Shown here: piece by piece, positions 25,429 through 42,435 of the stretch
Position numbering within the stretch: the stretch's first letter is position 1
Layout: every line of letters starts with the position of its first letter
NCBI GenBank assembly: GCA_016234115.1
Contig: JACRHD010000040.1
Span: forward strand, 1 to 42,435
Direction of reading: 5' to 3'
From: Nitrospirota bacterium
GTDB lineage: Bacteria > Nitrospirota > Thermodesulfovibrionia > UBA6902
DNA length: 42,435 nucleotides
The notes under the pieces: model-generated
The model's input: the letters and a program-made list of their open reading frames with translations, nothing else
Databases searched by the model: none
What the model was told of the DNA's origin: nothing
Made by a program: the position numbers and the translations under genes

Positions 25429-25606
25429 GAATCCACCACCTAACCACGGAGGTCACAGAGAACAGATTAATTAATCCGCAGATTACACAGATTTCACAGA
25501 TTGAAACAATATTTCTAAATACATCTGTGTTAATCAGTGTAATCTGTGGATTAATATTTTATTTTTTCCTCTGTGGTCTCTGTGGGTTGTCTTTTGATGG
25601 TGAATC
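25429..25606. repeat. ~178-bp element, family D, copy 1
   Basis: Sequence units such as CCGCAGATTACACAGATTTC and its mirror CAGTGTAATCTGTGGATTAA make the core a long inverted repeat. The outer parts (AACCACGGAGGTCACAGAG / CTCTGTGGTCTCTGTGGG) also mirror. The whole element recurs in opposite orientation at 37440-37611. Together with flanks it fills the spacer 25342-25684 between thyX and the chemoreceptor; no gene is present there. Confidence 0.93.
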
Positions 25607-34128: not shown

Positions 34129-36822
34129 CTACCCTTTTCTTCTCTTCCACCACTTCTCCAGCTCCACAGCAAAAAATACAACGGTCGACAGGGCAAGTGT
34201 GAACGTCAGTTCATTCAACGATAAAGGCTCTGTCCTGAACACCGGATTCAGTGAAGGAATATATACAGTCCCCATCTGAAGCGCAAAGGTCAGCAGGAAC
34301 GCGCCCACTAACGGCTTATTGGAAAGAAATCCCTGAACAAAAAGCGCTTCCCTCTCCGACCGTATGGCGAGGACATGGCCCATCTGGCTTAAACACAATA
34401 CTGTAAACACCATCGTCTGCCAGTGTGCCGAACCCGTCCTTATGCTCCATGCCTGAACAAATATGGATACAAAACCCATCAGAAGCCCGACCCATATTAT
34501 ATGCGCGCCGAGCCCCTGCGCAAAGACACTCTCCCGGGGATGGCGCGGCGGTCTTTGCATGATCCCCTTTTCCGCCGGCTCCGCGGCAAGGGCCAGTCCG
34601 GGCAAACCGTCGGTGACAAGGTTGATCCAGAGAATATGAATCGGCAAAAGAGGAATCGGCAATCCTAAAAAGGGCGCGAGGAATATCGTCCATATCTCGC
34701 CGGAATTACTGGTCATCGTATATTTTATGAATTTGCGTATGTTGTCAAAGATACGCCTTCCCTCTTTCACCGCCCTTACTATAGTCGCAAAATTATCATC
34801 GCGCAGCACCATGTGGGCCGCCTCTTTTGAGACGTCCGTCCCGGTAATACCCATGGCAATGCCGATGTCCGCCCTTTTCAGCGCCGGGGCGTCATTGACT
34901 CCGTCGCCGGTCATGGCAACGAACTGTCCTTTGTCCTGGAGCGCTTTGACTATCTTCAGTTTCTGCTCGGGCGCAACCCTCGCGTACACCCTGATATGTT
35001 CGACCCTTTCTTCAAAATCCTCCAACGATAATTTCTCAAGCTCCCTGCCTGTAATTATCGCCTTCGAGTCCTCTTCGAAAATGCCCAACCTCTTTGCTAT
35101 TACCCTCGCCGTAAGCGGATGGTCCCCGGTTATCATCACCGGCCTGATCCCTGCTGTTTTGCACATGGCGACTGCTTCTTTTGCTTCATCCCTCGGAGGG
35201 TCCATCATCCCTGTGAGACCTAAAATGGTAAGTCCCTTCTCCACGTTCTCCGGGGACATATCTTCAGGCAGGCCGTCCCACTCTCTCATGGCTATGCAAA
35301 GCACTCTCAACCCGTCTGCGGCCATCCTGTCGCTGATCTTGAGAATTTCCATCCTGTCAACATCTTTCAAACCTTCAGACGTCAGTACCTTGCCCGCTTT
35401 TTCGATCAGGACCTCGACAGCGCCCTTGGTGAAGGAAACATACTGAAAGGGTCCGGGGGTCGGGGTCCGGGGGCCGGGAACGACCGGACCCTGGTCCCTG
35501 GACCCTGGCCCCTTGTGAAGAGTCGTCATGCATTTTCTCTCTGAATCAAACGGAATTTCGGCGACGCGGGGGAATTCTTTTTCAATCTCTTCTTTAACGA
35601 ATCCATTTCTGTTTGCTATATCAAGGAGGGCGACCTCGGTAGGATCGCCGATTACGTTTCCATCCTTGTCCCGGACAGCGTCGTTACTGAGGGCGAGGGC
35701 AGTATATAGAGTTAAGAGTGAAGAGTTATGAGTTAAGAGGTCCTTATCTCCCTGACTCCTGACTCTTGACTCTTGACTCTTGATCAGTTTCCCGTCCACA
35801 TACATCTCCTCCACAGTCATCTTGTTCATTGTCAGCGTGCCGGTCTTGTCGGAGCATATGTAGGTGACGGAGCCGAGGGTTTCCACTGCGGGAAGCTTCC
35901 TGATAAGCGCGTTCTGCCTTACCAGTTTCTTCGCGCCTAATGCAAGGGATATCGTTATTACGGCAGGAAGGGCTTCAGGGATCGCGGCAACCGCAAGGGA
36001 AATCGCAGTCAGGAGCATCAGCAGGGGCTGCTCCCCTCTCATCACTCCGATGCCGAAGACTATCGCGCATATTACAAGGACGGCAACAGCGAGTTTCTGG
36101 CCGAAGCTCGCGAGTCTTTTCTGAAGGGGCGTCTTTACCTCCTCTTCTTCCTGCAGCATAGTGGCGATCCTTCCGAGCTCCGTGTCCATACCTGTGGCGA
36201 CAACAACGCCGGTCCCTCGCCCGTAGGTCACAAAGGTGCCTTTATATGTCATATTCTTCCTGTCGCCGATGGGGAGATGTTCATCATGCAATACGTTTGC
36301 GTGTTTATCAACAGGGACCGCTTCCCCGGTCAGCGCCGCCTCCTCCGCCTTCATCTGCGCGGATTCTATGAGCCGCACATCCGCCGGGACCACCCTTCCC
36401 GCCTCAAGGACAACCACGTCACCGGGGACAAGCTGCGCTGCCGGAATACCGGCAGGCGCTCCGTCCCGAATAACAGTTGCCGTAGGCGCCGCCATCATTT
36501 TGAGGGCCGCCATTGCCTTTTCCGCACGGTATTCCTGGACAAAGCCGATAACGGCGTTAAGCAGAACGATTATGATTATGGCGATAGTGTCCGACGGCTC
36601 TCCTATGGTCCCCGATATAACCGCGGCAGCGATAAGGACCAGGATCATAAAGTCCCTGAACTGGTCCAGGAACATCATGAATGGGGTCTTTTTCTTCTTC
36701 TCCTTTAACTCATTGGGGCCGTATTCCGCAAGGCGCTTCACCGCTTCTTCAGAAGAAATGCCCCGGGGGGACGATTTCAGCTCTTCAATTGCTTCTTTTA
36801 TACCTTTCTGGTGCCAGTGCAT
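34129..36822 (-). CDS. P2A-type cation-transporting ATPase, probable Mn2+ (or Ca2+) exporter
   Basis: This 897-residue P-type ATPase resembles SERCA/PMR1. The phosphorylation motif is CSDKTGTLTMNK (about 325), and the hinge is TGDGVNDAPALK. M4 carries PEALPAVIT, and M6 carries NLVTDGLPGLAL, whose Asn and Asp are divalent-metal ligands in P2A pumps. Ten membrane helices are expected and present by eye. Two low-complexity stretches in the nucleotide-binding domain (KSQESRVRSQGDKDLLTHN at 35708-35782, PGSRDQGPVVPGPRTPTPG at 35449-35516) come from inserted repeats. AGGAG precedes the ATG. It follows the zinc-finger gene behind a yybP-ykoY riboswitch, which points to Mn2+. Confidence 0.95.
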   Translation of the reverse strand: MHWHQKGIKEAIEELKSSPRGISSEEAVKRLAEYGPNELKEKKKKTPFMMFLDQFRDFMILVLIAAAVISGTIGEPSDTIAIIIIVLLNAVIGFVQEYRAEKAMAALKMMAAPTATVIRDGAPAGIPAAQLVPGDVVVLEAGRVVPADVRLIESAQMKAEEAALTGEAVPVDKHANVLHDEHLPIGDRKNMTYKGTFVTYGRGTGVVVATGMDTELGRIATMLQEEEEVKTPLQKRLASFGQKLAVAVLVICAIVFGIGVMRGEQPLLMLLTAISLAVAAIPEALPAVITISLALGAKKLVRQNALIRKLPAVETLGSVTYICSDKTGTLTMNKMTVEEMYVDGKLIKSQESRVRSQGDKDLLTHNSSLLTLYTALALSNDAVRDKDGNVIGDPTEVALLDIANRNGFVKEEIEKEFPRVAEIPFDSERKCMTTLHKGPGSRDQGPVVPGPRTPTPGPFQYVSFTKGAVEVLIEKAGKVLTSEGLKDVDRMEILKISDRMAADGLRVLCIAMREWDGLPEDMSPENVEKGLTILGLTGMMDPPRDEAKEAVAMCKTAGIRPVMITGDHPLTARVIAKRLGIFEEDSKAIITGRELEKLSLEDFEERVEHIRVYARVAPEQKLKIVKALQDKGQFVAMTGDGVNDAPALKRADIGIAMGITGTDVSKEAAHMVLRDDNFATIVRAVKEGRRIFDNIRKFIKYTMTSNSGEIWTIFLAPFLGLPIPLLPIHILWINLVTDGLPGLALAAEPAEKGIMQRPPRHPRESVFAQGLGAHIIWVGLLMGFVSIFVQAWSIRTGSAHWQTMVFTVLCLSQMGHVLAIRSEREALFVQGFLSNKPLVGAFLLTFALQMGTVYIPSLNPVFRTEPLSLNELTFTLALSTVVFFAVELEKWWKRRKG
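35449..35516. repeat. GGTCC/GGGTCC repeat inserted in the ATPase gene
   Basis: Inverted units of GTCCGGGGGTCGGGGTCC and GGACCCTGGTCCCTGGACCC. They are translated in frame as a Pro/Gly-rich loop. Confidence 0.85.
35708..35782. repeat. GACTCTTGACTC-type inverted repeat inserted in the ATPase gene
   Basis: GTTAAGAGTGAAGAGTTATG mirrors CTGACTCTTGACTCTTGAC-like arms. Translated in frame within the nucleotide-binding domain. Confidence 0.85.
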
Positions 36823-36893: not shown

Positions 36894-37199
36894 TTACTTC
36901 CTGAATACACCGAACAGTTTGTCGAGCCCTGTCTTTTCAAGTCTTGACACGGACTCAAGCTCTCCGGCATCCAGCCAGATGCCGTCACATTCAGAGCACT
37001 TATCTACCTTTATGTCCCTGTAGTCTATCTCGATCAGCTCCATTCCGCATTTGGGACATCTCATCTTATGAAGGTCCCGGAGTCTCTTCTTTTCCGCTAA
37101 TGCAAGAAGTTTATGTTTATCCTCCTCGATCTTCTTCTTTTTTTCAAACTCCATCCTTGCTACGAATTCCGCTTCTCTTTCACTTGGTTTCCCCGGCAT
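36894..37199 (-). CDS. zf-TFIIB-type zinc-finger protein
   Basis: This 101-residue protein has a charged N-terminal coiled region (EFVARMEFEKKKKIEEDKHK). A zinc finger follows: CPKCGMEL, then CSECDGIWLDAGEL. The C-x-x-C / C-x-x-C-x-G-x-W-x-D pattern is typical of the zf-TFIIB family. GGAGGAGGT four bases before the ATG at 37199 decides the start over an upstream in-frame Met at 37223. It is the first gene behind the yybP-ykoY riboswitch and is probably co-transcribed with the cation ATPase 71 bp downstream. A role in metal handling is inferred from position only. Confidence 0.88.
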   Translation of the reverse strand: MPGKPSEREAEFVARMEFEKKKKIEEDKHKLLALAEKKRLRDLHKMRCPKCGMELIEIDYRDIKVDKCSECDGIWLDAGELESVSRLEKTGLDKLFGVFRK

Positions 37200-37237: not shown

Positions 37238-37285
37238 AAAAAAACCTTTATCACGAATGCACGAGAAATGCAACCATGATAAAGG
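37238..37285 (-). terminator. riboswitch-controlled intrinsic terminator
   Basis: On the minus strand CCTTTATCA (37285-37277) pairs with TGATAAAGG (37253-37245), followed by seven T (37244-37238). The upstream arm is also the 3' strand of the riboswitch P1 stem, so the two structures exclude each other. Confidence 0.9.
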
Positions 37286-37386
37286 TCTTGCTTGTCAGTT
37301 TTACCTGACCGGCGGTACCGGTCCGCGCCTCACCGGGGCGGAACGTGCTGACGATAGCCGCTGATCCAGCTACTCCCCTTTATTCA
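37278..37386 (-). promoter_or_regulatory. yybP-ykoY manganese riboswitch
   Basis: The minus-strand RNA begins AUAAAGGGGAGUAGC and ends CAAGACCUUUAUC. Both ends match the conserved loops of the yybP-ykoY aptamer known from Lactococcus yoaB (AAAGGGGAGUAGC ... GCAAGACCUUU). Between them are AUCGUCAGCACG and CCGGUGAGG, also typical. P1 would pair AUAAAGG with CCUUUAU. The P1 3' strand is needed for the terminator at 37238-37285, so Mn2+ binding should prevent termination and turn on the downstream zinc-finger and P-type ATPase genes. Confidence 0.93.
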
Positions 37387-37439
37387 GTTTTAAAAGATAG
37401 CTGAAATTACCGGTTAAGTCAAGGGGCGGCCAACTCCCT

Positions 37440-37611
37440 GATTCACCATCAAAAGACAAACCACAGAGACCACAGAGGAAAAAAATAAATATTAATCCAC
37501 AGATTACACTGATTAACACAGATGTATTTAGAAATATTCTTTCAATCTGTGTAATCTGCGGATTAATTAATCTTTTCTCTGTGACCTCTGTGGTTAGGTG
37601 GTGGATTCTGG
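37440..37611. repeat. ~172-bp element, family D, copy 2
   Basis: This is the reverse complement of the element at 25429-25606. It differs mainly by lacking one short internal CAGATTTCA-type unit and a few substitutions. It lies upstream of the riboswitch. The rest of the spacer (37612-37922) shows only a TATAAT at 37686-37691 and no gene. Confidence 0.93.
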
Positions 37612-37922: not shown

Positions 37923-40436
37923 ATGAGACGCAAGGTCGTCATGTCCCTTATTTCGCTTTTTGTATGCTATACCATAGGCGCGGTCCTGTCCGTACTGTAT
38001 ATTACAAAGAATACCGGGGAGATGAACCACGTCATCAGGCTTCACCAGGTAGACCAGATCAGGAAATCGCTCGTCATAAACGTATATGCCGCGCAGAGCG
38101 ATCTTTTCAGGTTAAACACACCGTTCGCGCCTGATACTTCGAATATTTCGGGCCATATGCTGACTCTCGAAGAATCAGTCCGGCAGTGCGCTTCATGCCA
38201 CCATACTTCCGCTGTCGGCGACCGCATAAAGGGCCTGCAATCTCTTATTCTGAATTATCACGCTGCTCTTGACGACTATATGGCCGCAGCCTCCGACCGG
38301 ACGGAGACGTGGAGACTGAAAATGAACGCCGTCAGGATCAGCAACGACATACTTAAACTGACTGAAGGCATTTCCCACCAGGCGAGCGATAACCTTGAAG
38401 TATTGACAGGCGACACCATGAAGAGACTCAGGGACGTCCGGAAGATCCTGTTTGCCACGCTGGTGACGACCTTCTTCCTCGCAGCGGCGATCGCGCTGTA
38501 TCTGAAGAGGTCCATAACGCGACCAGTAAGCGAACTGGTCGAGGCGACGAGGACGATGGCGGGCGGCAACTTCAATGCCAGGATTTCTTATACCGATACT
38601 TCCGAGTTCGGGGAGCTGGCGAGGCATTTTAATACTATGAGCGAAACAGTAAGATACGGATATGAAGAGATACGGAAGGAAATCATATGGCGCCGTGAGA
38701 CGGAAGAGGCCCTTCGTGAAAGCGAAGAACGCTATGCCCTCGCCTCCAGCGGCGCAAACGACGGGATATGGGACTGGAACCTGAAGTCGAACAGGATGTA
38801 CTATTCGCCCCGCTGGAAATCCATACTCGGCTACGAAAAAGACGAATTGACGGACAGTCCTTCCGAATGCCTGGACAGGGTGCATCCCGATGACCGTCCC
38901 CATATGGATACCGCGTTGGCCGCTCATATCAACGGCCATTCGCCCCATTATAAACATGAGCACAGGATGCTCAACAGAGAGGGCGTATACCTATGGGTAA
39001 TGTGCCGGGGGCTGGCCATCCGGGACTCATCCGGGAAGGCTTACCGCATAGCGGGGTCGATGAGTGATATTACGGAACGGAAAATTGTGGAAGAGCAGCT
39101 TATATTCGACGCGCTTCACGACTCCCTGACGGGACTCCCCAACCGGTCCCTGTTCAGCGACCGTCTCAGGCAGGCGATGTATCGCGAAAAGCGGCGCAGC
39201 GATTACCTGTTCGCGGTATTGTTTCTGGACATCGACCGTTTCAAGGTGTTTAACGACAGTCTTGGACACGCGATGGGCGATGAACTGCTTGTAGCGGTCA
39301 GTCACAGGCTCAAAGACACCATCAGGCCGGAGGACACTATCGCGCGTTTCGGGGGAGACGAGTTTGTAATTCTCCTTGAAGACCTGAAGGACAAAACGGA
39401 AGCCGTCCATATAGCCGAACGCATACAGGCCCACGTGACCCTGCCTTATAATATCAACGGGCGGGAGTTTTTCACATCTTCAAGCATCGGGATGACCTTC
39501 AATGCTCCGGCCTATGAAAAGCCGGAGCATTTTCTGCGCGACGCCGACATCGCCATGTATTGCGCGAAAAGCAAGGGCAGCGGCCGCTATGAGATCTTCG
39601 ACAAGGGGATGTATGCCGATGCGCTGGCGCGGATGCAGCTCGAGACCGACATGAGACAGGCCATCAAGCGGAACGAATTCCTGCTCCACTATCAGCCTGT
39701 AATATCGCTGAGAACGGGCAGGATTACAGGCGTGGAGGCCCTCATACGGTGGCAACACCCGGTGCGCGGCCTCATTTACCCTTCCGAATTCATCCGGTTG
39801 GCCGAGGAAACAGGTCTGATTATTTATATCGGCGAGTGGGTGCTCCATGAGGCCTGCCTCCGCCTGAGGATATGGCAGGACAAATTCCCTTCAGAGCCGC
39901 CTATGAAGATGAGCGTTAATATGTCCAGCAAACAGTTGTTCCCGCATTTCGTCAAGGCGGTCGGGGAGGCCCTTCAGAATAACTCCCTGGCCCCCGACAG
40001 CCTGGTGCTGGAGGTCACCGAGAGCATGCTGATGGAAAACGCCGAGACCGTTTCAAACCTTCTTTTACAACTGAAAGAAATGCGCGTCCAGATACATATC
40101 GATGACTTCGGCACCGGATATTCCTCGCTGAGCTACCTGCACCAGTTCCCCATCGACGCGCTGAAGATCGACCGTTCTTTCATCAAAAAAGCGGGCAGCG
40201 GAAATCTTGAAATCGCCCGGGCGATTGCGACCCTGTCCCACGGTCTCAATATGGAAGTCGTCGCAGAAGGCGTGGAAACAGAGGACCAGCTCGCGTTCAT
40301 TAAAACGCTGGACTGCGAATACGTTCAGGGGTTCCTGCTGTCAAGGCCCATCGAAAGCGGGGCCGTGGAAGATCTGCTGAATCAGGGCCGGATGGATATG
40401 GCCGGGTTCAAGAAGCATCCTTCCGCTAAAACTTAG
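37923..40436 (+). CDS. c-heme sensor diguanylate cyclase/phosphodiesterase (HAMP-PAS-GGDEF-EAL)
   Basis: This 837-residue membrane protein has a first membrane helix about 7-28 and a periplasmic sensor domain with one c-type heme motif (CASCHH, about 88-93). A second membrane helix lies at about 178-198 (ILFATLVTTFFLAAAIAL), followed by HAMP. PAS follows (YALASSGANDGIWDWNLKSN, then YRIAGSMSDITERK). GGDEF is intact (ARFGGDEFVIL, about 478). EAL is intact in key motifs (GVEALIRW, EVTESMLMEN, DDFGTGYSS, VVAEGVET). AAGGAGA precedes the ATG. Both enzymatic halves appear competent. A covalent heme in the sensor suggests it reads redox state or a gas. PilZ receptors at 23.6-24.3 kb are possible downstream partners. 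Confidence 0.95.
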   Translation: MRRKVVMSLISLFVCYTIGAVLSVLYITKNTGEMNHVIRLHQVDQIRKSLVINVYAAQSDLFRLNTPFAPDTSNISGHMLTLEESVRQCASCHHTSAVGDRIKGLQSLILNYHAALDDYMAAASDRTETWRLKMNAVRISNDILKLTEGISHQASDNLEVLTGDTMKRLRDVRKILFATLVTTFFLAAAIALYLKRSITRPVSELVEATRTMAGGNFNARISYTDTSEFGELARHFNTMSETVRYGYEEIRKEIIWRRETEEALRESEERYALASSGANDGIWDWNLKSNRMYYSPRWKSILGYEKDELTDSPSECLDRVHPDDRPHMDTALAAHINGHSPHYKHEHRMLNREGVYLWVMCRGLAIRDSSGKAYRIAGSMSDITERKIVEEQLIFDALHDSLTGLPNRSLFSDRLRQAMYREKRRSDYLFAVLFLDIDRFKVFNDSLGHAMGDELLVAVSHRLKDTIRPEDTIARFGGDEFVILLEDLKDKTEAVHIAERIQAHVTLPYNINGREFFTSSSIGMTFNAPAYEKPEHFLRDADIAMYCAKSKGSGRYEIFDKGMYADALARMQLETDMRQAIKRNEFLLHYQPVISLRTGRITGVEALIRWQHPVRGLIYPSEFIRLAEETGLIIYIGEWVLHEACLRLRIWQDKFPSEPPMKMSVNMSSKQLFPHFVKAVGEALQNNSLAPDSLVLEVTESMLMENAETVSNLLLQLKEMRVQIHIDDFGTGYSSLSYLHQFPIDALKIDRSFIKKAGSGNLEIARAIATLSHGLNMEVVAEGVETEDQLAFIKTLDCEYVQGFLLSRPIESGAVEDLLNQGRMDMAGFKKHPSAKT

Positions 40437-40637
40437 AACATTTCGTCCTTAAATCTCCTGGTTACCGCTAACCATTTCCCCACTCATTTATCTCATGATT
40501 TCAAAATAAAATTACGTCCGGTTACGTTATAATAGCCGCAAAAGCAGGGCTCTGAAAGAGGGGTGAAGGTCTTAAATTTCCGTTGAAAAGAAACCATGAA
40601 GGCAGGCAATAACACTCACAACAGGAAAGGGGACAAA

Positions 40638-41465
40638 ATGGAAACACAATTGGCGGTTTTTAAAGGCAGGAAAATCAGAAAGACAATTTATAACAATGAG
40701 TGGTGGTTTGTAATTGAGGACGTAGTTCTGGCGCTTATTGATTCGACTGATCCTAAACAATATATCCAGCGTATGAAACAGCGCGATCCGGAGCTTGCAA
40801 AAGGGTGGGTACAAATTGTACATACCCTTTTGGTTGATACGTCCGGTGGCTCGCAGCGGATGATCTGCGCCGATACTGAGGGAATCTTTCGTATTATTCA
40901 ATCCATCCCGTCTTCTAAAGCCGAGCCCTTTAAACGCTGGCTGGCCAAGGTCGGTTACGAGAGGGTACAGGAGATTGAAGACCCCGAATTAGGCACCAAA
41001 AGGACAAGGGCTTTGTATAAGGCGAAGGGCTATTCGGACGACTGGATTGAAAAAAGAATGCGTGGAATAGCCATCAGGGAAGAGCTTACCGGCGAGTGGA
41101 AAAAGCGGGAAGTGAAAGAGAAAAGAGAATACGAGATACTTACCGCCGAGATAGCTAAAGCTGCATTCGGGATAACGCCTGACAAGCACAAGAGACTCAA
41201 AGGCTTAAAACGTGAGAATCTCCGTGACCACATGACCGACCTTGAACTGATCTTCTCAATGTTAGGCGAAGCGGCAACGACTGAGATAACACGGGTCGAT
41301 GACACAAAGGGGTTTCATGAAAGCAAACACTCAGCTCGTAAAGGCGGTGAAGTTGCAGGCAAAGCGCGAGAGGACCTTGAAAGGAAAACCGGCAGGCGAG
41401 TTGTCACACATGAAAATTATCTGTCCGAGCCGGAGAGCCGGAAGAAGTTGGAGAGAAAGAAGTAA
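40638..41465 (+). CDS. BRO-N / DinD-like protein
   Basis: This 275-residue protein has an N-terminal BRO-type domain (VFKGRKIRKTIYNNEWWFV, then IEDVVLALIDSTDPKQYIQR, then ADTEGIFRIIQSIPS), as in phage antirepressors. The C-terminal half (LYKAKGYSDDWIEKRMRGIA, then ITPDKHKRLKGLKR) matches DinD-like proteins. DinD in E. coli is damage-induced and inhibits RecA; that role is not proven here. AGGAAAGGGG lies before the ATG at 40638; the frame is open from 40596. It is 56 bp upstream of and co-oriented with cas3, so the two may share a transcript. Confidence 0.85.
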   Translation: METQLAVFKGRKIRKTIYNNEWWFVIEDVVLALIDSTDPKQYIQRMKQRDPELAKGWVQIVHTLLVDTSGGSQRMICADTEGIFRIIQSIPSSKAEPFKRWLAKVGYERVQEIEDPELGTKRTRALYKAKGYSDDWIEKRMRGIAIREELTGEWKKREVKEKREYEILTAEIAKAAFGITPDKHKRLKGLKRENLRDHMTDLELIFSMLGEAATTEITRVDDTKGFHESKHSARKGGEVAGKAREDLERKTGRRVVTHENYLSEPESRKKLERKK

Positions 41466-41521: not shown

Positions 41522-42435
41522 ATGAAGAAATTCTACGCCCATAGCGCTGAAGGCAAACCACAGGATGAATGGCATTCGCTTGAGGAGCATTTGAAGGGGA
41601 CGGCGGAGCTTGCCGGATCGTTTGCGGGTGAATTTGGATCCGGGGAATGGGCTTGTCTGGCGGGGTTGTGGCATGATCTGGGGAAGTATTCGGATGATTT
41701 TCAAAAAATGCTTCTTGACTCTATCGATGCTCATATTGAAACAAAATCTGGCAGGGTAGATCATTCCACTGCGGGGGCAATTCACTCAGTTAGAAAATTT
41801 AATATACCGGGAAGAATATTCAGCTATCTTATCGCGGGACACCATGCCGGACTTGCAGACTGGCAAACCGCTGAAGCAGGCAACAGGAGCTTAATCCACC
41901 GTCTTCAAAATAATGATCTCATCAAGAAAGCCCTCGAATCAAATATTCCGCAGAAAATCACAGAACAATCTCTGCCCAGGCAAAAATTCAGGACTAACGA
42001 AGGGCATGCGCTGTGGATCAGGATGCTATATTCCTGCCTTGTTGACGCTGACTTTCTTGACACAGAGGCATTTCTTGATCCGGATAAATCAAAGACGCGC
42101 AAAGGTTACCCTTCACTGAATGAACTTCAGCCTCTTTTTGAAACCTATATTGAGATGAAACAGGCTGGGGCTGATGATACCGATGTCAACAAACAACGGG
42201 CCGATATCCTCAGGCAATGCATTGCAAAATCATTACATGAACCTGCAATCTTTACGCTGACAGTTCCGACAGGTGGCGGAAAGACTCTTTCGTCAATGGC
42301 TTTTGCCTTGCATCATGCAGCGGAACACGATAAGAGGCGAATTATTTATGTCATCCCCTATACGAGTATCATCGAACAGACAGCCGAGCAATTCAGAGAT
42401 ATTTTCAAAGATACAGTTGTCGAGCATCACAGCAA
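41522..42435 (+). CDS. cas3: CRISPR-associated helicase-nuclease Cas3 (N-terminal part, runs off window)
   Basis: An open frame of 304 codons runs from ATG 41522 to the window edge with GAGGGGGG about eight bases upstream. The HD nuclease domain comes first: YAHSAEGK, LEEHL, WHDLGKYSDDFQ (about 50), DHSTAGA and AGHHAGLADW (about 106). The helicase begins with Walker A in TVPTGGGKTLSS (about 248) and YVIPYTSIIEQ. This arrangement is Cas3 of type I. The opening resembles I-C forms, but subtype cannot be fixed without the other cas genes. No CRISPR repeat is in the window; the rest of the locus should lie to the right. Confidence 0.95.
   Translation, partial: MKKFYAHSAEGKPQDEWHSLEEHLKGTAELAGSFAGEFGSGEWACLAGLWHDLGKYSDDFQKMLLDSIDAHIETKSGRVDHSTAGAIHSVRKFNIPGRIFSYLIAGHHAGLADWQTAEAGNRSLIHRLQNNDLIKKALESNIPQKITEQSLPRQKFRTNEGHALWIRMLYSCLVDADFLDTEAFLDPDKSKTRKGYPSLNELQPLFETYIEMKQAGADDTDVNKQRADILRQCIAKSLHEPAIFTLTVPTGGGKTLSSMAFALHHAAEHDKRRIIYVIPYTSIIEQTAEQFRDIFKDTVVEHHS

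Follow-up and report, generated by a model that had tools for sequence, protein, structure and literature searches.

Identification of the Leader and Its Layout

What senses what in the leader ahead of a zinc-ribbon gene and a P-type ATPase gene on contig JACRHD010000040.1 of a Nitrospirota bacterium (assembly GCA_016234115.1)? A preliminary description, made from the letters of the DNA, took the leader for a yybP-ykoY riboswitch that turns on the two genes in response to Mn2+. The window examined here is the whole stretch of 42,435 nt. We propose that the leader is a Mn2+-sensing riboswitch of the yybP-ykoY class, which would switch on the transcription of a gene for a Mn/Ca efflux ATPase, and we put the probability of this reading at about 0.88. 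The DNA sequence shows a conserved core, a covarying three-way junction, a strand shared with a terminator, a promoter and, in relatives, neighbouring genes for Mn exporters.

The features of the locus are collected in Table 1. All of the strings quoted in the preliminary description were located, on the minus strand. Read 5′ to 3′ on that strand, from 37384 to 37238, they stand in the order AUAAAGGGGAGUAGC, CAAGACCUUUAUC, the terminator hairpin, CCUUUAUCAUGG...UUCGUGAUAAAGG, and the U-tract. The genome, of 3.5 Mb, has a single copy of the motif GGGGAGTAGC-N60..90-AAGACC and none of the pattern read backwards. Of the 50 distinct leaders from Nitrospirota, 42 have TTGAC, the −35 box, 36–58 nt ahead of GGGGAG, vs 2.6% of random windows. 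Given this position of TTGAC and a terminator directly after the aptamer, transcription would start at the aptamer and the decision would fall right behind it. A terminator scan with the loop limited to 3–8 nt found no site, owing to that limit, and is not used as evidence.

Table 1. Predicted elements and genes of the riboswitch operon, in window coordinates.
Feature	Position	Strand	Evidence or remark
Sigma-70-like promoter, TTGACT-17-TATCTT	37394..37422	−	9/12 consensus matches
yybP-ykoY (Mn2+) aptamer, predicted, P2-less three-way junction	37279..37383	−	R1 97.8 bits (the window is one of the 18 training sequences of R1); covariation
Aptamer parts in order: P1.1, L1 GGAGUA/AAGA, P1.2, P3.1, L3 UCAGCAC, P3.2, P4
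Shared switch strand CCUUUAU (P1.1 3′ strand and terminator 5′ arm)	37279..37285	−
Intrinsic terminator hairpin	37245..37285	−	12 uninterrupted bp at base; −21.2 kcal/mol alone
Terminator U-tract, seven U (UUUUUUU)	37238..37244	−	Direct reading
101-aa protein, N-terminal helix and TFIIB-type zinc ribbon (PF13453)	36894..37199	−	Pfam 58.1 bits
897-aa P2A-type (Ca2+/Mn2+) P-type ATPase	34129..36822	−	Some 70 nt downstream of the zinc-ribbon gene

A Conserved Core without P2

The leader contains both L1 (GGGGAGUAGC with AAGACC) and a 7-nt L3 with the invariant adenosine. The U-C-A that opens L3 is found in all 18 of the aligned aptamers described below. According to PMC6754395, the L3 of the crystal structures is UCA41AUUC in Lactococcus lactis and ACA48UACU in Xanthomonas oryzae, the N7 of the adenosine contacts Mn2+, and both structures are four-way junctions with P2. 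Four helices, P1 to P4, at a four-way junction are not what is found in the window and its relatives; P2 is absent, and the junction is three-way instead.

In a sample of at least 124 exact-motif members, the spacer between GUAGC and CGUCA measures 13–19 nt in 60 and 21–38 nt in 64. Under constrained folding, a P2 hairpin of at least three pairs forms in 2 of the 60 short-spacer and all 64 long-spacer members among the matches listed. The Escherichia coli alx leader, whose reporter is activated by Mn according to PMC9603457, has a GTAAC-to-CGTCA linker of 16 nt, counted by eye. That is, it falls in the short, P2-less class. These sequence comparisons indicate that P2 is optional, rather than defining, for the yybP-ykoY class. 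The P2-less fold was considered as a novel subclass and rejected: with the form this common among the members listed and with one proven example in alx, there is no new class. Two P2-less Mn riboswitches lie about 430 bp apart in Alkalihalobacillus algicola (locus L044, 3027-3119 and 3538-3630), with a 102-aa ORF between them.

Covariation and Homology

BLASTN, queried with the leader, detected homologous leaders in 18 of the family's 37 genomes, a few of them terminator remnants only. The alignment, A2, holds 18 aptamers, as follows: 17 from the BLASTN matches, the window included, and one from a sub-threshold RF00080 match. RNAalifold folds them into a three-way junction of P1.1, L1, P1.2, P3.1, L3, P3.2 and P4. 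In this structure, 96.8% of the cells are paired, vs 90.9% in shuffled alignments; 12 pairs show changes on both sides, vs 5.9; and there are 42 double-change cells, vs 15.5, a number reached by none of 500 shuffles. The covariation is also far above that of slid versions of the structure.

A covariance model, R1, was built solely from the 18 aligned Nitrospirota aptamers. In the 8-kb loci of E. coli alx and mntP, it finds a single match each, immediately upstream of the gene (26.3 bits, E 1.3e-4, and 20.7 bits, E 0.006, respectively). Firmicutes members score 45–58 bits, and 32 of 198 Nitrospirota genomes have R1 matches. The window leader is homologous to the experimentally proven yybP-ykoY members, E. 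coli alx and mntP, and the class assignment of the preliminary description is upheld by the covarying fold together with these matches.

In two relatives (L015 of genome G023 and L019 of G029), the 3′ half of the leader, the terminator part, alone is kept, an apparent loss of the aptamer. The L015 remnant stands before a zinc-ribbon gene.

Why Rfam Misses the Element

The preliminary description held that the lack of an RF00080 hit would refute the riboswitch. At the gathering score, RF00080 indeed has no match in the window, where the leader reaches 8.7 bits in E-value mode vs a cut-off of 45, nor across the source genome. The 198 Nitrospirota genomes yielded one sub-threshold match and none above the cut-off, and four Nitrospirota loci (L055, L092, L134 and L160) have no match at E <= 1. 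Neither the alx nor the mntP locus of E. coli reaches the cut-off, and P2-less members from Firmicutes score 25–32 bits in E-value mode. The control loci, which hold exact-motif members from named genomes, separate by P2: the cut-off is reached by 0 of 28 P2-less vs 11 of 25 P2-bearing loci (Fisher p = 6e-5). Since the P2-less form is missed as a group by RF00080 (Rfam 15), a missing match does not refute the riboswitch, and that use of the test was dropped in the light of the control loci and the R1 matches. At the gathering score, the refuting condition did arise, and the class assignment survives it. The RF00080 cut-off is no fair definition of the yybP-ykoY class. RF00080 (Manganese) and the window leader have GGGGAGUAGC in common, and the model does detect some of the P2-bearing members.

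What is new here is a phylum-wide set of riboswitches missed by Rfam and the zinc-ribbon protein linked to it; the window leader as such is an ordinary, well-formed riboswitch of a known class before a known kind of target, to which the standard model is blind. The set extends Mn2+ riboswitch control to a phylum with no RF00080 match over the cut-off; one of the genomes is, by its title, from a Mn-oxidising enrichment. About half of the exact-motif members listed are without P2 and at risk of being overlooked in annotation.

The Proposed Switch

The competition between P1 and the terminator that was proposed at the outset is supported in the window by the shared CCUUUAU strand, the P1.1 3′ strand competing with the expression platform. 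Among the 50 distinct leaders from Nitrospirota, 43 likewise use the P1.1 strand in a terminator, sharing being counted where a stem of at least 7 pairs starts from exactly the first C of the strand and is accompanied by four or more U in a row. The other seven are L010–L012, which are near misses, the second leader of L098, with a bulged stem, L184, with a short U-run, L183, which is clipped by the search pattern, and L172, without a clear terminator.

In L. lactis, Mn2+ stabilises P1.1 and the terminator is blocked, making an ON switch, as described in PMC11087558 and PMC6754395. In one review, the Mn riboswitches are labelled OFF switches (PMC11477304). That label is at odds with the primary papers and with the geometry seen here, both of which point to ON, and the ON direction given in the preliminary description gains support from the shared-strand geometry and the published mechanism alike.

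Mn2+ binding, the direction of switching and the substrate of the pump are what we infer, as follows. At low Mn2+, CCUUUAU would pair within the terminator, and RNA polymerase would stop at the seven U. When Mn2+ is high, its binding between L1 and L3 would dock the two legs of the RNA and stabilise P1.1. The stabilised P1.1 would hold CCUUUAU, no terminator would form, and the zinc-ribbon and P2A-ATPase genes would be transcribed. The ATPase would then most likely export surplus Mn2+, possibly with Ca2+, and the zinc-ribbon protein would be a linked accessory.

Genes behind the Element and the Identity of the Ligand

In relatives, the same leader precedes genes for HtpX, GDT1, a DsbA-like protein, carbonic anhydrase, UPF0182 and the zinc-ribbon/P2A-ATPase pair. 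We take GDT1 to be the UPF0016/MneA-type family of Mn exporters. A cross-phylum sample of at least 114 downstream proteins includes 56 TerC, 17 GDT1 and 8 P-type ATPases.

The window ATPase carries the Cation_ATPase N, E1-E2 and C domains and the motifs PEALPA in M4, N/E in M5 and NLVTD in M6; the meaning of the three motifs and the naming of M5 and M6 are presumed. Neither NCBIfam equivalog cut-off is reached (PMR1-type, 720.6 vs 798.3; SERCA-type, 661.5 vs 703.4). Among solved structures, the closest relative is lmo0841, a Ca2+-ATPase of Listeria (E about 2e-194), which has AGNLGA in M5, where the window protein has TSNSGE, and INLVNDSLPA in M6, where the window protein has INLVTDGLPG. The M5 and M6 ligands fit the Ca2+/Mn2+ P2A group without choosing between the two metals. 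The M6 ligands are compatible with the Ca/Mn class named in the preliminary description; its step from M6 to a Mn2+ exporter is not supported, as these residues do not discriminate, and we rejected them as a proof that the pump is specific for Mn. The assignment of Mn to the pump rests instead on the riboswitch and on the GDT1 exporter neighbour in relatives.

An element with the same fold and switch could have another transition metal (Cd2+, Co2+ or Ni2+), or a broader set, as its physiological ligand. According to the review PMC11477304, Co2+, Cd2+ and Ni2+ are further ligands of Mn2+ riboswitches, and the ATPase residues do not separate Mn from Ca. Against this, L3 and its Mn-ligand adenosine are conserved, and GDT1 stands behind the element in relatives; 328 of 333 GDT1 cases in the bacterial strains screened in PMC7380456 are under yybP-ykoY control. 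We consider a ligand other than Mn2+ improbable.

The pairing of this riboswitch with a P-type ATPase is already known. In Streptococcus, a Mn-sensing riboswitch reportedly activates a Mn2+/Ca2+ ATPase, going by the title of a 2019 report by Martin. The yoaB switch of L. lactis is, as presented in PMC11087558, PMC11477304 and PMC9190785, a Mn2+ ON switch in which P1.1 competes with a terminator, as in the window; the YoaB P-type ATPase protects against Mn2+, and a P-type ATPase likewise stands behind the window switch. The L. lactis element differs in having P2 and a four-way junction, whereas in the window P2 is absent and the ATPase gene is separated from the switch by the zinc-ribbon gene. 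By its description in PMC11477304, the Mn2+ riboswitch of Clostridioides difficile CD2503, before a cation P-type ATPase orthologous to that of L. lactis, is similar; that account makes no mention of a zinc-ribbon partner, unlike the window. E. coli alx belongs to the same riboswitch family and is also P2-less, but its target gene, alx, differs from that of the window.

Several loci of relatives carry more than one element. In L032 (G035:C52), three P2-less leaders (L012, L020 and L022) lie within about 7 kb, before HtpX-GDT1-DsbA-like genes, before a second P2A ATPase (44% identical) and before a carbonic anhydrase-zinc ribbon-P2A ATPase series in which the ATPase is split into two ORFs. GGGGAG is altered in L022, the middle one of the three. 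L098 (VEOY01000185.1, ‘Mn-Nitrospirae-1’ MnB_6), from a genome that, to judge by its title, may stem from a Mn-oxidising enrichment, carries a Mn riboswitch in front of HtpX and, about 1.1 kb away, a second in front of a P2A ATPase. A cluster seen in L194, L197, L198, L204 and L210 begins with a Mn riboswitch, HtpX and further ORFs and continues with a second Mn riboswitch, carbonic anhydrase, zinc ribbon and P2A ATPase; carbonic anhydrase was not seen in the L198 copy. In L160, which has the same cluster as L194, the further ORFs are AIR carboxylase, biotin carboxylase and a carboxylase/biotinyl subunit.

Folding Energies and Competing Structures

The whole leader, mostly through the terminator, folds far better than shuffled sequences (z −5.8), which is not true of the aptamer by itself (z −1.6). 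For the full leader, the computed energies favour the terminator by about 20 kcal/mol (−62.1 vs −42.5), a difference that is expected for the OFF state and mute on switching.

The three-way junction of the window is not the minimum-energy structure of the aptamer in ViennaRNA (−18.1 vs −38.9 kcal/mol), with which it shares 12 of 28 pairs. Of the 18 aligned sequences, 10 have at least 28 pairs in common with their optimum; two relatives have just 10 of 29–30, and the rest are intermediate. In the window, a GUAGCUG/CGGCUAU hairpin competes with the junction. Covariation was sought for this hairpin and none was found; a P2-like hairpin (GCUG/CAGC or GUAGCUG/CGGCUAU) was rejected as the true fold, being without covariation, vs strong covariation in P3.1. 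Because the energy model has no metal term and no tertiary term, the non-optimal junction lowers our confidence only slightly.

It could still be argued that the window copy is a decayed riboswitch, which misfolds and leaves the terminator constitutive. The junction is off the energy minimum, P3.1 has an A.C mismatch, and L015 and L019 show reduction to a terminator remnant in relatives. However, L1, L3, P1.1, P1.2, P4 (with a compensatory C-G pair), the promoter and the terminator are all intact in the window, and the poor overlap with the optimum in the two other relatives means that the effect is not specific to the window. Decay is, in our estimate, slightly less probable still than a change of ligand. 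An ordinary attenuator or terminator without a metal aptamer, as the silence of RF00080 at its gathering score might suggest, is scarcely credible when all of the helices covary, L1 and L3 are invariant and the leader is homologous to proven E. coli riboswitches.

The Zinc-Ribbon Protein

With the Mn2+ riboswitch as the preferred reading, the first gene that it would control deserves attention. Its ATG follows a Shine-Dalgarno sequence, AAGGAGGAGG, and no PF13453 protein other than its product was found in the source genome. AlphaFold predicts, with modest confidence (mean pLDDT 70.7), a long N-terminal helix, from 9 to 47, followed by the ribbon. In the alignment of orthologues, the CPKC and CSxC pairs are invariant.

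Close orthologues (at least 57% identity) are present in 24 of the 198 Nitrospirota genomes and R1 matches in 32; both are found in 16, vs about 4 expected (Fisher p = 1.5e-9, not corrected for relatedness). In 14 of the 16, the zinc-ribbon gene shares contig and strand with the element and is at most 12 kb away from it, downstream in 12 and just upstream in two (G051 and G116); in G145 and G154, it is on a different contig. Eight genomes have the zinc-ribbon gene without an R1 match. Among these, it stands upstream of a P2A ATPase in four (G018, G140, G077 and G099) and about 1 kb after one in G174; in the remaining three, the ATPase is outside the stretch examined. This adjacency in R1-negative genomes makes the tie of the zinc-ribbon protein to the ATPase independent of the switch.

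The suggestion that the protein is a new partner of the ATPase therefore holds as an association, that of a recurrent neighbour. If we were to guess at a function, it would be that of an adaptor or metal carrier for the pump. It is tempting to go further, at odds distinctly below even, and to see in it an undescribed component of bacterial Mn2+ homeostasis. It would be a cytosolic protein, controlled by the switch, that partners the P2A ATPase as adaptor, metal carrier or regulator. The Mn regulon of Nitrospirota to which it would belong is invisible to the current Rfam model and might also include HtpX, carbonic anhydrase, UPF0182 and GDT1. In the open-licence PMC literature, we recognised no paper on the element in Nitrospirota or on the zinc-ribbon partner. 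Tied to both switch and ATPase, this small protein is a named, directly testable candidate.

Other Features of the Window

Divergent from the riboswitch operon, on the plus strand, is the gene for a HAMP-PAS-GGDEF-EAL protein (37923-40436), in which a CASCHH heme-type motif was read by eye in the N-terminal sensor part. A Bro-N domain gene (40596-41465) adjoins a Cas3-like HD/helicase gene (41522-42433, plus strand), which is cut by the contig end. Upstream of the promoter, at 37462-37600, lies an imperfect inverted repeat of CACAGATTACACTGATTAACACAGAT-type sequence, which also occurs at 25523-25548. The CACAGATTACACTGATTAACACAGAT-type 26-mer has 54 copies in the genome with at most 3 mismatches, 24 of them exact, vs 0 for the control.
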